Origin: Actinobacteria bacterium HGW-Actinobacteria-2
GTDB lineage: Bacteria > Actinomycetota > Actinomycetes > Propionibacteriales > Propionibacteriaceae
NCBI GenBank assembly: GCA_002841335.1
Contig: PHEY01000003.1
Span: 1 to 64,000 of the forward strand
Length of the DNA stretch: 64,000 nt
Direction: 5' to 3'
Notes under the pieces: model-generated
What the model was told of the DNA's origin: nothing
What the model saw: the letters and a program-made list of their open reading frames with translations, nothing else
Database searches by the model: none
Position numbers and translations under genes: made by a program
Shown here: positions 17,848 to 25,105 of the stretch, piece by piece
Layout of the letters: every line of letters starts with the position of its first letter
Position numbering within the stretch: the first letter of the stretch is position 1

Positions 17848-18303
17848 TCAGTCCTCAATGACGTCCAATCCCTGCTCACGAAGTCGGGCCAGGTTGTCCA
17901 ACATGGCCTGCAGCACCTCGGGCGGATGCGGCTGCCAATCGTCCAGCTCACCGACCACCCGCAGCGGAAATCGCGTGCGGTACGACTGGGTGATGTTTCC
18001 CGGGAAACGCTTGTTGGTGACGTTGGGATCGTCCTCGAAACCGCCGAGCGGCTCGACGAGGTAGATGTGGCCGCGCTCGTGCGTCCCGGCCAGGGCGGTG
18101 GCCAACTCCGCACCCCAGACCGCGGTCTCGACCAGCGCGGAGAAGTAGATGTTGTTCATCACGCGCTCGGTCTGGAAATTCGAGCCGAAGCCCGGCAGCA
18201 GCTCAGTGCCCACCTCAACCGCGGCCTTCGTGCCGTGGTAGAACGGCCCGGGCACCTGGGCGCAGTTGTCGTAGCTGACGGCCTGGTAGTCGTCCTCAGT
18301 CAC
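17848..18303 (-). CDS. arr: Rifamycin ADP-ribosyltransferase (Arr)
   Basis: A 151-residue protein that matches Arr enzymes along its length: FYHGTKA at residues 21-27 (the histidine that helps bind NAD), NNIYFSALVETAVWGAELA, then HIYLVEPLGGFEDDPNVT, RFPGNITQSYRT and the ending HPPEVLQAMLDNLARLREQG. Arr transfers ADP-ribose from NAD+ to the C23 hydroxyl of rifampicin and inactivates it. The GTG start at 18303 has a very strong GGAGGAGGAG site; the longer in-frame reading lacks one. It is a chromosomal copy with base composition like its neighbours and no mobile element beside it, so it looks intrinsic rather than acquired. Confidence 0.93.
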   Translation of the reverse strand: MTEDDYQAVSYDNCAQVPGPFYHGTKAAVEVGTELLPGFGSNFQTERVMNNIYFSALVETAVWGAELATALAGTHERGHIYLVEPLGGFEDDPNVTNKRFPGNITQSYRTRFPLRVVGELDDWQPHPPEVLQAMLDNLARLREQGLDVIED

Positions 18304-18435
18304 GTCGCTCCTCCTCCACCGAGATGGCTTCACGATAGGCGGTCAGGACGGTCTCCCTCTCGGCCGGCCGCGTCCGTCGCGCACGTCACCTGGACACCTT
18401 GTGGACGGCCCCCGCGTCCCGCTTACGCTCACGAC

Positions 18436-20383: not shown

Positions 20384-21316
20384 CTAGCTGCGCCGCAACG
20401 CCTTGGTGAAGGCTCGCGCGTGGCTGGCTTCCTGACGTCCGGCCGTCCAGAACTCGTGAGCTGCGGCGCGGTCACCGACCGCCTTCGCCTGGCTGGCGAA
20501 GTCGGGGTACATCACGGTGGCCTCGTAGGTCTCGCCACTGATGGCGGCGGTGAGGTTGGCCGCGTTCGTGCCGACCAAGCCGGCCAGCACGCCTTCACCA
20601 GCGAAATGCTCGGTCAACTCGACCTTGGCCGTGCCGGCGAACAACGCGGCGATCGCCGGATGCCCGGTCTTGGCCGCATGCGTGGCGTAGAGGCGGTACT
20701 TCGCTTGCGCGAACGCCTCGCCGTGCATGGCATCCAGCAGATTGGTCAGCGTCTGACCGGCGCAGGCGGGGTCACTCTTCACGATGGTCACCACGTCGGC
20801 CACCTGTGGTGCTGGGACGCTCACGCTCGCATCGCTCAGCGAGGTGAGTGCCGTCTGATACGCGGCGGCGTGCACCGCTTCGTCGGCGGCGATTTCGGTG
20901 AACAGATCGGCGGCCACGGTGCAGCCCTCGGCGGTTGCCGTCGCTGCGAAGGCCGGATACATCGTGGTGGCTTCGTACGTCTCACCGGCGATCGCGTCGG
21001 CGAGGTTGGCCGCGTCGCTGCCGACCAGGCCGGCGATCACCGCCTCATCGGCGAAGTGATCATTGAGCTCGACCGACGCCGTCTTCAAGAACAGCTTGGC
21101 CACTGAGCGCTTGCCGGTGCGGGCGGCCTGACCGGCGAAGGCGGTGTACTTGGCGTAGGCGAATGCCTCGCCGTGCATGGCGGTCAGGGCGTTGGCCTTG
21201 GTAGAGGCGGCCACCGTGCGGCTGTGGTGGGCGGGCGCTGCGGTCGCGGCGGGGATCGAGGCGCAGGTGAGCGCGATCGTCCCAGCGGCGATGGCCAGGT
21301 GTTTCCAGGTGAACAT
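20384..21316 (-). CDS. Secreted protein with two tandem rubrerythrin-like di-iron domains
   Basis: A 310-residue protein with a Sec signal peptide (residues 1-27, cleavage near ATAA). Two ferritin-like four-helix domains follow, about residues 38-160 and 185-310. The first has candidate di-iron ligands E50, E83, H87, E112, E115, E146 and H149, in GEAFAYAKY, SVELNDHF, GETYEA and DEAVHAAA. The second repeats the pattern (GEAFAQAKY, KVELTEHF, GETYEA, QEASHARAF). Spacing in the second ligand pair is ExxxH rather than the usual ExxH. No rubredoxin domain is present. Rubrerythrins reduce peroxide; a role outside the membrane in iron or peroxide handling is inferred. AAGGAG precedes the ATG. Confidence 0.85.
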   Translation of the reverse strand: MFTWKHLAIAAGTIALTCASIPAATAAPAHHSRTVAASTKANALTAMHGEAFAYAKYTAFAGQAARTGKRSVAKLFLKTASVELNDHFADEAVIAGLVGSDAANLADAIAGETYEATTMYPAFAATATAEGCTVAADLFTEIAADEAVHAAAYQTALTSLSDASVSVPAPQVADVVTIVKSDPACAGQTLTNLLDAMHGEAFAQAKYRLYATHAAKTGHPAIAALFAGTAKVELTEHFAGEGVLAGLVGTNAANLTAAISGETYEATVMYPDFASQAKAVGDRAAAHEFWTAGRQEASHARAFTKALRRS

Positions 21317-21573: not shown

Positions 21574-22089
21574 TCAGGACCTCTCCTTCTTCAGCTGCTG
21601 CAGCTTGTGCCTCAGCCCCTTCAGCGTCAGCGGGTCAGGCAGGTCGAGTGCTGAGGGGGCAACCACCTCGTTGTCGCCATTGGAGACGGTGAGCACGATC
21701 GTGGTGTCGTCCGGAGCGTGCGTGGCGGTCAAGTACAGGTAGGTGGCCGCCAACGCGAGGCCGAGCGCCTTGGCCGACTCGACGTCCCCGGTCTCGGTGG
21801 TGTGGAAGGAGAGTTGGAACTTCTTCTTGGAAGGCCGGTCCACCTCATAGGTTCCCCGCAGCGACACCTTCGTGGCGTAGGTGGAGAACTTCTTGTGGAC
21901 GGCGGAGTCGTCGGTCACCACAGCGGCGGCGCTCACCGTCGGCATCGGAGGAATGTTGGTGAAGCCCGGGATGGGCGGAATGAGCGGCACGATGAAGTAG
22001 GTGGTGAGTTGATAGGAGAGCACCATCACTCCGGTGAGGAGCATGGCAGCGAGCGGACCCATCTTCTTCGAACGGCTAGCCGGGCTCAT
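21574..22089 (-). CDS. Membrane-anchored protein of unknown function
   Basis: A 171-residue protein I do not recognise. It has one hydrophobic segment near the N-terminus (residues ~12-37, GPLAAMLLTGVMVLSYQL onward) preceded by a basic SRSKK stretch, then a proline-rich linker (PLIPPIPGFTNIPPMP) and a soluble domain outside or at the membrane (residues ~50-170) with mixed strands and a basic C-terminal helix (LRHKLQQLKKERS). The orientation is probably N-in, with the main domain extracytoplasmic. AAGGAG lies just before the ATG. It stands upstream of the di-iron protein on the same strand, separated by the iron-box region. Confidence 0.7.
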   Translation of the reverse strand: MSPASRSKKMGPLAAMLLTGVMVLSYQLTTYFIVPLIPPIPGFTNIPPMPTVSAAAVVTDDSAVHKKFSTYATKVSLRGTYEVDRPSKKKFQLSFHTTETGDVESAKALGLALAATYLYLTATHAPDDTTIVLTVSNGDNEVVAPSALDLPDPLTLKGLRHKLQQLKKERS

Positions 22090-22860: not shown

Positions 22861-23904
22861 CTAGTGCCGGTGCGGGTGATGGGTGTCGGGGAAGTGCCGA
22901 TGGTCGTGAGTGACCTCCGGATGCTCATGCCAATGGCGGTGGCCGCCACGAGGGGCTGAGTCGTCGAGGTGATCGTGCTGATGATGGATGTCGTGGGTGT
23001 GCCAGTGGTCATGGGCGGACGCATCGTGATGGTGCGCATGGGTGTGGCGCTCGGTCAGATGGAGCCAGACCCCGAACGCCATCAGCACCCCAGCGGGGAT
23101 CAACGGCCATCCCAGCGGCTCACCGAATGCCAGGGAAAGCACCGCCCCCACGAACGGCGCGATCGAGAAGTAGGCGCCGGCGCGGGCCGTCCCCACCTCT
23201 CTCATGCCGAAGATGAACAGCGCCAGGCTCACCCCGTACGAGACGAACCCCACTGCCATCGCGGCGCCGATCGGACCCGGCGCGGGCAGCTGGGCACCGA
23301 GGGCGAAGCCGAGGACGAGGTTCACCGGGCCGGCCACCGCGCCCTTCACCGCGGCCAGCCACGTGGTGTCGTTCAGAGACACCTTGCGGGTGAGGTTGTT
23401 GTCCACGCCCCAGGCAAGGCAGGCGCCCAGCACCGCCAGGGTCGGCAGCAGCGACCCGAACTCGACCAACGTCGGCACGCTGAGGACCACCGCGCCGGCG
23501 ACGATCGCAAGCATCCCGAGAAGGATGCGGCGGCTGACCGGCTCTCGGAACACCAGCCACGCCAGGCCGACGGTGAACACCGCCTCGGCGTTGAGCAGCA
23601 GCGCCGCTCCGGACGCCGGCATCGCCGACAGTCCGAACATCAGCAGCACCGGCGCAACGATGCCCCCACTGATGACGGCACCGACCAGGGGTCCGCGGTC
23701 AGTGCGGGCCAGCCGAACCCGTGGCGTCCGTCGGACTGCCCGAAAGACCCACAAACCGACTCCCGAACCGGCGTACAGCAGCCCGGCCAACAGCCACGGA
23801 TTCACCTCGCCGAGCAGGGCTTTTGCCAGCGGGGTGGCCGCGCCGAACAACACCGCAGCCAGCAGCGCCGCCTGGACGCCCCGGCTTGTCAGCGCTGCTT
23901 TCAT
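22861..23904 (-). CDS. EamA/DMT-family transporter with a histidine-rich tail
   Basis: A 347-residue protein. The first ~280 residues form ten membrane helices in two EamA repeats (for example AALLAAVLFGAATPLAKALL and AVLGACLAWGVDNNLTRKVSL). The remaining 66 residues hold 25 histidines with many aspartates, in clusters such as HTHAHHHD and HDHWHTHDIHHQHDH. Such tails bind Zn, Ni, Co or Cu and suggest that this member moves or senses a metal ion, unlike the amino-acid or drug exporters of the family. This is inferred. The tail sits on the cytoplasmic side if the usual ten-helix topology with both ends inside holds. A CDF metal transporter lies 0.5 kb away. Confidence 0.87.
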   Translation of the reverse strand: MKAALTSRGVQAALLAAVLFGAATPLAKALLGEVNPWLLAGLLYAGSGVGLWVFRAVRRTPRVRLARTDRGPLVGAVISGGIVAPVLLMFGLSAMPASGAALLLNAEAVFTVGLAWLVFREPVSRRILLGMLAIVAGAVVLSVPTLVEFGSLLPTLAVLGACLAWGVDNNLTRKVSLNDTTWLAAVKGAVAGPVNLVLGFALGAQLPAPGPIGAAMAVGFVSYGVSLALFIFGMREVGTARAGAYFSIAPFVGAVLSLAFGEPLGWPLIPAGVLMAFGVWLHLTERHTHAHHHDASAHDHWHTHDIHHQHDHLDDSAPRGGHRHWHEHPEVTHDHRHFPDTHHPHRH

Positions 23905-24010
23905 CGATCAACTCTCACTGAGATGGTGTTCCCATCCTCGCAGGCGGTGCACCGGGGTGGTGGCCGGCGCCGGCTTTCGACGGCCCGCATCCGTGAGTAG
24001 GTTCATGGGC

Positions 24011-24415
24011 ATGCCCACCATCGAGATCTGCGCAGCCCTGGTCGTCGACCCCGATGGACGGATGCTGCTGGTGCGCAAGCGTGGGACGTCCGCCTTCCTG
24101 CAGCCCGGCGGCAAGCCCGAGCCAGGCGAGACCCCGGTTGAGACGATCGTCCGCGAACTGGACGAGGAGCTCGGCCTGGCTCTGGCCGCAACGCGCTTCG
24201 AGACCCTGGGCACCTTCGAGGAAGCGGCCGCCAACGAGCCCGATCATCGCGTGGTCGGGCACGCTTTCCGGGTGGAGCTGACCCGTGCCGAAGCTGTCGC
24301 CGCGCGCGAGGCTGCGGAGATCGCCGAGCTTCGATGGGCGACGGTGGCCGAGGCGCAGGGCCTGGCGTTGGCGCCGCTGACCCGTAGCTACTTCGTGCCG
24401 CTTGTACTGGGTTGA
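24011..24415 (+). CDS. Nudix hydrolase
   Basis: A 134-residue protein with a complete Nudix box beginning at GGKPEPGE and ending at RELDEELGL (pattern Gx5Ex7REUxEExGU). The family hydrolyses nucleoside diphosphates linked to other groups, such as oxidised nucleotides; the exact substrate is unknown. TAGGTT (23998-24003) ends 7 nt before ATG 24011, supporting a leaderless start; ATG 24005 is an in-frame alternative. It is followed 36 bp later by the CDF transporter gene, which has its own promoter. Confidence 0.92.
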   Translation: MPTIEICAALVVDPDGRMLLVRKRGTSAFLQPGGKPEPGETPVETIVRELDEELGLALAATRFETLGTFEEAAANEPDHRVVGHAFRVELTRAEAVAAREAAEIAELRWATVAEAQGLALAPLTRSYFVPLVLG

Positions 24416-24451: not shown

Positions 24452-25105
24452 ATGTCCGACGCTGATCAGCCACCGCCCGATCCGGTCGCGGTGACGGCGT
24501 CCCGGCTGCGGCGGATCGTCCTGATCGTCGCCGGCTTGAACTTCGCCTACTTCTTCGTCGAGTTCACCGTGGCGCTCACCGCGGGCTCGGTGTCGCTGCT
24601 GGCCGACAGCGTGGACTTCCTGGAAGACACGTCGGTCAATCTGCTGATCTTCATCGCCCTGGGTTGGCCGATGGTGCACCGCTCAGTGATGGGCAAGGTG
24701 ATGTCGCTGCTGATCCTGGGGCCGGCGGTGCTGGCCGGCTGGGAAGCGATCGAACGGTTCAGCCACCCGGCGCCACCGCACGTCCTGCCTTTGGTGTTGG
24801 CCTCGGTCGGCGCCATCGTGATCAACGGCACCAGCGCGTGGCTGCTGGCCGGCGTCCGGCATCACGGCGGGTCGCTGAGCCGAGCCGCGTTCTTGTCGGC
24901 GCGAAACGATGTGCTGGTCAACGTGTCGATCATCGCGATGGCGGGACTGACCGCGTGGACGAACTCCGGTTGGCCGGACCTGATCCTGGGCTGCTTCATC
25001 ATCGTGCTCGCCGTGCTGGCGGCCCGTGAGGTGTGGGAGGCCAGCGAGGAGGAACGCCTGGCCGCGAAGGCGCTCAGCGGTGAGGCCTTCTCCGACGACG
25101 ACTGA
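24452..25105 (+). CDS. Cation diffusion facilitator-like transporter, short form
   Basis: A 217-residue membrane protein with six helices that resembles the CDF fold. Helix 2 reads AGSVSLLADSVDFLEDTSVNL, with D55xxxD59 where CDF zinc transporters have HxxxD or DxxxD. In helix 5 the site reads SARNDVLVN, so the usual histidine is replaced. The cytoplasmic C-terminal ferredoxin-like domain is missing; the chain ends in a short acidic tail (SGEAFSDDD). It may carry a divalent metal or be a divergent member with another role. Confidence 0.75.
   Translation: MSDADQPPPDPVAVTASRLRRIVLIVAGLNFAYFFVEFTVALTAGSVSLLADSVDFLEDTSVNLLIFIALGWPMVHRSVMGKVMSLLILGPAVLAGWEAIERFSHPAPPHVLPLVLASVGAIVINGTSAWLLAGVRHHGGSLSRAAFLSARNDVLVNVSIIAMAGLTAWTNSGWPDLILGCFIIVLAVLAAREVWEASEEERLAAKALSGEAFSDDD

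Follow-up and report, generated by a model that had tools for sequence, protein, structure and literature searches.

A CnrT-like EamA transporter with a conserved two-module histidine tail in an actinobacterial genome

Histidine-rich segments of metal transporters are commonly regarded as loose metal sponges of variable make-up. NreB, a nickel exporter of the MFS, carries such a stretch at its C-terminus. The NreB class is described as an inner-membrane Ni exporter, and the loop of RcnA is given as 17 histidines in 67 amino acids in E. coli and 33-53 in 100-123 amino acids in cable bacteria (PMC11247825). The known relative of the protein described here is CnrT of Cupriavidus metallidurans CH34, encoded on pMOL28. 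In the CH34 record, the operon cnrYXHCBAT ends with cnrT, whose product AMRFinderPlus labels a nickel diffusion facilitator. Published papers list DmeF, CnrT, and CnrCBA as Ni(II) exporters (PMC11647595), name CnrT as the cnr system's inner-membrane exporter (PMC9045368), assign cnrT to the DMT family, TC 2.A.7 (PMC7019866), and credit the gene with encoding a nickel efflux system (PMC10133563). The cnrT transcripts rise from 47 to 230 (about 4.9-fold) under a metal mix (PMC11647585), and the CnrT protein was detected once, at 11 copies, in unchallenged cells and was not found in metal-shocked cells (PMC11647595). A search for "histidine" in passages of PMC11647595 and PMC7019866 returned no mention of a histidine tail of CnrT. 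We likewise found no description of a two-module tail in the excerpted literature on CnrT, EamA, NreB, and histidine-rich proteins, a scope that lies outside the primary CnrT papers.

We identified a CnrT-like EamA/DMT transporter gene in the window, by which we mean the whole 64-kb stretch of DNA analyzed here. The open reading frame lies on the minus strand at 22861..23904, encodes 347 amino acids from an ATG start, and ends with a stop codon at 22861-22863. Its product shares 49.6% identity with CnrT over residues 24-347, tail included (E 3e-61). When 72,556 plasmid records were searched by tblastn, 68 gave a match, CnrT among them, and in 58 at least 80% of the query was covered. The transporter belongs to the already known CnrT type, and it is the rigid tail that merits testing. 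Among 40 listed plasmid records, the gene is annotated simply as "DMT family transporter" in 20 and as cnrT in five. No curated NCBIfam CnrT model matches either the window protein or CnrT itself.

The first-pass annotation had read this gene as an EamA transporter ending in a 25-histidine tail, and both points were borne out. PF00892 matches two stretches of the 347-residue protein (E 8.5e-25, 88 bits vs. a cut-off of 28.2), and all 25 histidines fall within the last 66 residues, with none in the first 281. With 2.9% histidine as the background frequency, taken from 2381 residues in eight other ORFs of the window, the binomial tail for at least 25 histidines in 66 residues is 8e-22. An EamA census of the source genome gave 19 domain matches, 15 with loci. 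Nine EamA genes were read, this one included, leaving out two weak extra genes without loci; the eight others have zero to two histidines in the final 66 residues, so that this gene alone among the nine has a histidine tail.

Two modules of 26 residues each, arranged in tandem and of the form HxHxHxHxxxxHxHxHx[H/P]DxHHxHxH, make up the tail. Module A (residues 287-312; 22969..23046, minus strand) holds 12 canonical histidines and one extra, while module B (residues 322-347; 22864..22941, minus strand) holds 11 canonical histidines and ends at the C-terminus. They are joined by a linker of nine residues (313-321; 22942..22968, minus strand), the commonest length in the family. Parsing succeeded for 118 of 120 two-module proteins: module A has 26 residues in 87, 27 in 25, and 29 in six; module B is 26 residues long in 115 and 27 in three; the linker has nine residues in 85; and module B forms the very C-terminus in 92. 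It failed for L179, which has a truncated frame, and for L142, where module A lacks canonical histidines (L numbers denote loci). The parsing pattern required the four-residue turn and most of the histidines; these figures therefore speak to length and spacing and are no independent measure of conservation, and the histidine columns of 95-100% in the parse are partly built in because the pattern demands histidine at most canonical positions.

Histidine retention was counted independently, by pairwise alignment of homologues against the window protein. Across 118 two-module homologues (one protein was left out, its alignment being too short), 21-23 of the 23 canonical histidines are kept at every level of membrane-part identity from 37% up, while mean identity at the non-histidine tail positions is 21-24% in the bins below 70% membrane identity and 36% above. 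The codons follow the same pattern. Compared with the nearest relative, L002, all 24 module histidines are kept with nine CAC/CAT switches, and 17 of 28 other codons encode the same residue; compared with CnrT (L020), 23 of 24 are kept, again with nine switches, and six of 28 other codons do so. In L009, one of eight such comparisons, 20 of 24 histidines are kept, and a 27-residue module A shifts the register. Histidines retained through CAC/CAT switches while other codons diverge show that selection acts on the histidine residues and not on the DNA, and a 23-histidine layout kept across phyla while most interleaved residues change argues for a defined structure. As read from these alignments, the rigidity of the histidine layout is the strongest new point, in contrast to the variable loops of RcnA. 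We also considered a chance or low-complexity artefact and rejected it, since the pattern is kept at the protein level with synonymous switches and the reversed DNA pattern of HxHxHxPDxHHxH has no match in the Pseudomonadota and Actinomycetota genome samples described below.

The membrane part (residues 1-286; 23047..23904, minus strand) contains the two EamA repeats and approximately ten predicted transmembrane helices, with its first histidine at residue 282 at the earliest. An AlphaFold model built on an alignment of 48 sequences (the window protein and 47 loci) has a mean pLDDT of 88 and a pTM of 0.82 and shows the membrane-helix bundle of the ten-helix DMT fold; a single-sequence model reached a pLDDT of 50. 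Structures matching the membrane part include LicB, a triose-phosphate translocator, SLC35B1, and 5i20, with Z of 23-27. LicB (7b0k) aligns over 249 residues (Z 27.3, rmsd 2.4) and 5i20, presumably YddG, over 275 (Z 23.0, rmsd 3.8); most of these matches cover residues 2-288 only, and a PDB sequence search with the window protein gave no match up to E 1. In the tail, strands are predicted at 288-293 and 296-302 in module A and at 322-328 and 331-336 in module B, with block pLDDT of 58-82, falling to 40 at the extreme C-terminus. Each strand pair spans one HxHxHxH-x4-HxHxHxH, so that alternate residues, the histidines, would face one side, a reading taken from the predicted secondary structure. 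The hairpin models are of middling confidence. In loops taken by hand from the models, the inner side has eight Lys/Arg and the outer side none (the tail not counted), which would place the tail in the cytoplasm.

Within the membrane part, six residues deserve mention. CnrT carries the full set N105, E107, D168, N169, N170, and K187, as do four of six tailed rows checked (window included), and none of the eight other EamA proteins of the genome has the set complete. D168 is found in all six tailed rows and is replaced by Glu in two tailless outgroup rows, L127 and L128, which have the other five residues in common with the tailed proteins. These conserved residues may form a metal or proton site.

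We sorted 131 distinct family proteins by tail state, labeled by eye after a pattern match: 120 have two modules, three have one, two are degenerate, and six have none. Fragments (L018, L019, L143), a remnant (L184), proteins outside the family (L167, L193, L194), genes already used (L134-L140 and L164-L192 except L179), and duplicates (L001, L031, L047, L063) were left out of the counts. The genome relatives are the best 80 of 580 confirmed, ranked with an all-tailed alignment, and five of the 68 plasmid records were used, so the set leans towards tailed proteins. Searches with the membrane part alone (residues 1-281) give less biased samples. Among 246 Actinomycetota genomes, ten match including the window, and the nine others, at 36-43% identity, comprise two two-module, two degenerate, and five tailless proteins. 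Among 397 Pseudomonadota genomes, 21 carry 23 such proteins, of which 21 have two modules, one has a single module (L144), and one is tailless (L158); this sample is centered on G304, itself a carrier with three of the 23. Relatives lie on contigs labeled Pseudomonadota, Actinomycetota, Myxococcota, and Nitrospinota, each of the last two through a single metagenome-assembled genome (L092 and L104). Nearer the window the gene is patchy: within the genus, 15 of 29 further genomes carry it, and elsewhere in the family and order none of 30 sampled genomes does.

The module B pattern HxHxHxPDxHHxH proved near-exclusive to this family. It occurs at 24 places in 23 of the 397 Pseudomonadota genomes: 21 in whole family genes, two in family frames that are broken or reduced to a remnant (L179, L184), and one in a CobW-like protein (L167). 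Among the 246 Actinomycetota genomes it occurs in seven, five of them in family genes (one being the window) and two in antisense-looking frames, so that the CobW-like protein and these two frames are the only occurrences outside the EamA family. A mobile histidine module shared by unrelated proteins was accordingly rejected for this pattern in the 643 sampled genomes. Separately, two distant relatives, L132 and L133, have a degenerate first module and a well-kept second-module end, HEHEHLPDIHHRH, and possibly constitute a separate subfamily.

The first-pass annotation had proposed a phylogeny of tailed members and had named a tail confined to this strain, along with the lack of a metal phenotype, as what would refute its reading. 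We built a quick maximum-likelihood tree from the membrane parts of the 131 proteins, rooted on five tailless Actinomycetota proteins; its support is SH-aLRT only, with no bootstrap, and the program flagged long branches. At least six changes of tail state are required on this tree, compared with a mean of 10.9 after shuffling, and the three single-module proteins and L158 are scattered separately inside the two-module group. On the evidence of this tree, the two-module tail is old, and the single modules look like separate deletions. The tail is present across distant homologues, and we reject the idea that it is an oddity of one strain or genus. A single module as the ancestral state is not favored either, given that the three single-module proteins sit apart from each other. 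The one-module proteins (L046, L100, L144) and L158, in which the tail was lost, are natural variants that would be useful controls.

The gene neighborhood was examined for partners. The neighbors scanned in the window are GNAT, NUDIX, and CDF-like genes. The CDF-like gene (24452..25105, plus strand, 217 amino acids; Cation_efflux PF01545, E 6.1e-14) is one of three PF01545 matches in the source genome and lies near the transporter, beyond the NUDIX gene (24005..24415, plus strand). The NUDIX and GNAT genes are also kept in the nearest relative, L105, in which no CDF match and no CnrA or CnrB homologue was found beside the transporter gene. The first-pass annotation had cited a nearby CDF-like gene; the gene is there, and it is weak evidence for metal in view of L105. 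We do not support it as a conserved partner on that ground, though seven of the best 80 of 580 relatives have a CDF match within 1 kb of the transporter. It is the only metal gene seen in the window: of ten probes, those for CnrA, CnrB, ArsR, MerR, and P-type ATPases had no match in the whole 64 kb at E 1e-3. Elsewhere in the window, we observed a rifampin ADP-ribosyltransferase gene (17848-18333, minus strand; Arr-ms, PF12120, 4.9e-40) and a gene at 20384-21316 (minus strand) with a signal-like N-terminus, judged by eye, and two rubrerythrin-like stretches (PF02915). A 171-residue ORF at 21574-22089 (minus strand) had no Pfam or NCBIfam match.

Across the best 80 of 580 loci, we probed the neighborhoods for six kinds of genes (ArsR, MerR, CDF, P-type ATPase, RND, and membrane fusion protein). 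Within 1 kb of the gene there are 31 matches in 155 kb (200 per Mb), and at 1-9 kb there are 28 in about 1,007 kb (28 per Mb), an enrichment that is suggestive and not a clean test, being biased upward because the probes were partly chosen from clusters near the gene (ArsR because it adjoins it). At least one match was found in 33 of the 80 loci and none within 9 kb in 47, many loci being shortened by contig ends. In five of the 80, all Microbacteriaceae (L030, L034, L036, L040, L085), an ArsR/SmtB gene lies directly against the start of the transporter gene or overlaps it. NmtR is a Ni/Co sensor, and the one ArsR protein searched, that of L036, has NmtR (2lkp, 4e-14) as its best solved-structure match. 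Among the Proteobacteria, the MerR protein of L087 is closest to the CueR and CadR/PbrR models, below their cut-offs, and L081 has a CusA/CzcA-type RND pump as a neighbor. The P-type ATPases nearby are of the CPC type in Proteobacteria and of the CPH or TPC type in actinobacterial loci. As a further observation, CPH ATPases lie approximately 0.1-8 kb from the transporter in five relatives of the window (L108, L114, L115, L120, L031), and four of the five, L114 being the exception, appear by eye to have histidine-rich N-termini.

The explanation we favor, and consider probable, is that the window protein is a CnrT-type Ni(II)/Co(II) exporter with a cytoplasmic tail that captures metal for the pore. 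It would act as a secondary exporter of the DMT superfamily, clearing the cytoplasm of Ni(II) and/or Co(II) through a pore formed by the ten helices with their two EamA repeats. The tail consists of two 26-residue modules, in each of which alternating histidines flank a four-residue turn, followed by [H/P]DxHHxHxH; each module may fold as a beta-hairpin with its histidine side chains on one face. Both modules would capture and concentrate cytoplasmic Ni/Co and then hand it over to the pore. The identity of the metal, the direction of export, and the hand-over by the tail are the steps that we infer. Of the roles suggested in the first-pass annotation, metal handling is supported by homology, tail included, to CnrT, a Ni(II) exporter in the cited literature, and nothing supporting a sensing role was found. 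From its list of Zn, Ni, Co, and Cu, what favors Ni/Co over Zn/Cu is this homology together with the NmtR-like regulator beside some actinobacterial members. Counting against the Ni/Co exporter, no metal regulator or RND pump is recognizable near the window gene, 47 of the 80 loci have none of the probed metal genes within 9 kb, and the CnrT protein itself was scarcely detected in Cupriavidus (PMC11647595). Nor are two modules strictly required, given the three single-module proteins among the 131 and the tailless L158. Beyond this, we tentatively raise the possibility that the tail is a distinct folded metal domain, two histidine-faced beta-hairpins from a duplicated 26-residue unit, older than the spread between Actinomycetota and Pseudomonadota, that folds on Ni/Co and gates or feeds the DMT pore. 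Should this be the case, it would represent a metal domain and a coupling mode for which we found no description among EamA proteins.

One alternative keeps the exporter architecture and changes the metal. The RND, MerR, and CPC/CPH/TPC ATPase neighbors suggest other metals as well, and the main substrate could be Zn, Cd, or Cu, or the family could be broad, with the metal varying by clade. The CueR- and CadR/PbrR-like regulator of L087, the CusA/CzcA-type pump of L081, the P-type ATPases in both phyla, and the CDF-like neighbor in the window all speak for this account, which we regard as unlikely. RND and P-type genes also travel in mixed metal islands, however, and the searched actinobacterial ArsR neighbor matches NmtR best. 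CnrT, the sole member with a named substrate, is listed for Ni in PMC11647595.

A much less probable account casts the tail chiefly as a sink or store for metal in the cytoplasm, with transport secondary or unrelated to it. Twenty-three regularly placed histidines would suit a store, L158 retains the membrane part after losing the tail, and the histidine-rich loop of RcnA is discussed as a chelator in PMC11247825. Yet invariant spacing would be superfluous in a loose store, and the tail goes with a single transporter family, which accounts for 23 of the 24 pattern matches in the 397 Pseudomonadota genomes. Marginally more improbable still is an exporter of a small metabolite or of a metal-ligand complex of the metallophore type, in which the tail would serve as a metal-dependent gate. 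EamA proteins mostly move metabolites, and EamA metallophore exporters are known. The window protein, however, scores far below the cut-offs of TIGR00950, for carboxylate/amino acid/amine exporters (27.9 bits vs. 230.2), and NF008523, for O-acetylserine/cysteine exporters (22.8 bits vs. 472), and the 45 largest neighbor clusters, scanned by eye from sequence starts, a weak test, include no metallophore biosynthesis genes.

Returning to the Ni/Co exporter, these findings extend the CnrT type beyond Cupriavidus to a family that spans phyla, and the natural two-, one-, and no-module variants make the role of histidine-rich exporter tails testable. CnrT and the window protein share their length class, the EamA fold, and the two-module histidine tail. 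They differ in setting: CnrT is encoded in the cnr operon with the CnrCBA pump, whereas the window gene has no CnrA or CnrB homologue in 64 kb (E 1e-3). The actinobacterial host has no Gram-negative outer membrane, and the window protein would thus export straight out of the cell. The tailless EamA relatives L127-L131 belong to the same family, at approximately 36-39% identity. NreB, an inner-membrane Ni exporter, resembles the window protein in its histidine-rich C-terminus, but it is an MFS and not a DMT protein. RcnA, a Ni/Co exporter of a different family, also has a cytoplasmic histidine-rich segment, as predicted for the window protein, but the loop of RcnA varies widely, whereas the spacing of the tail in the window family is near invariant.
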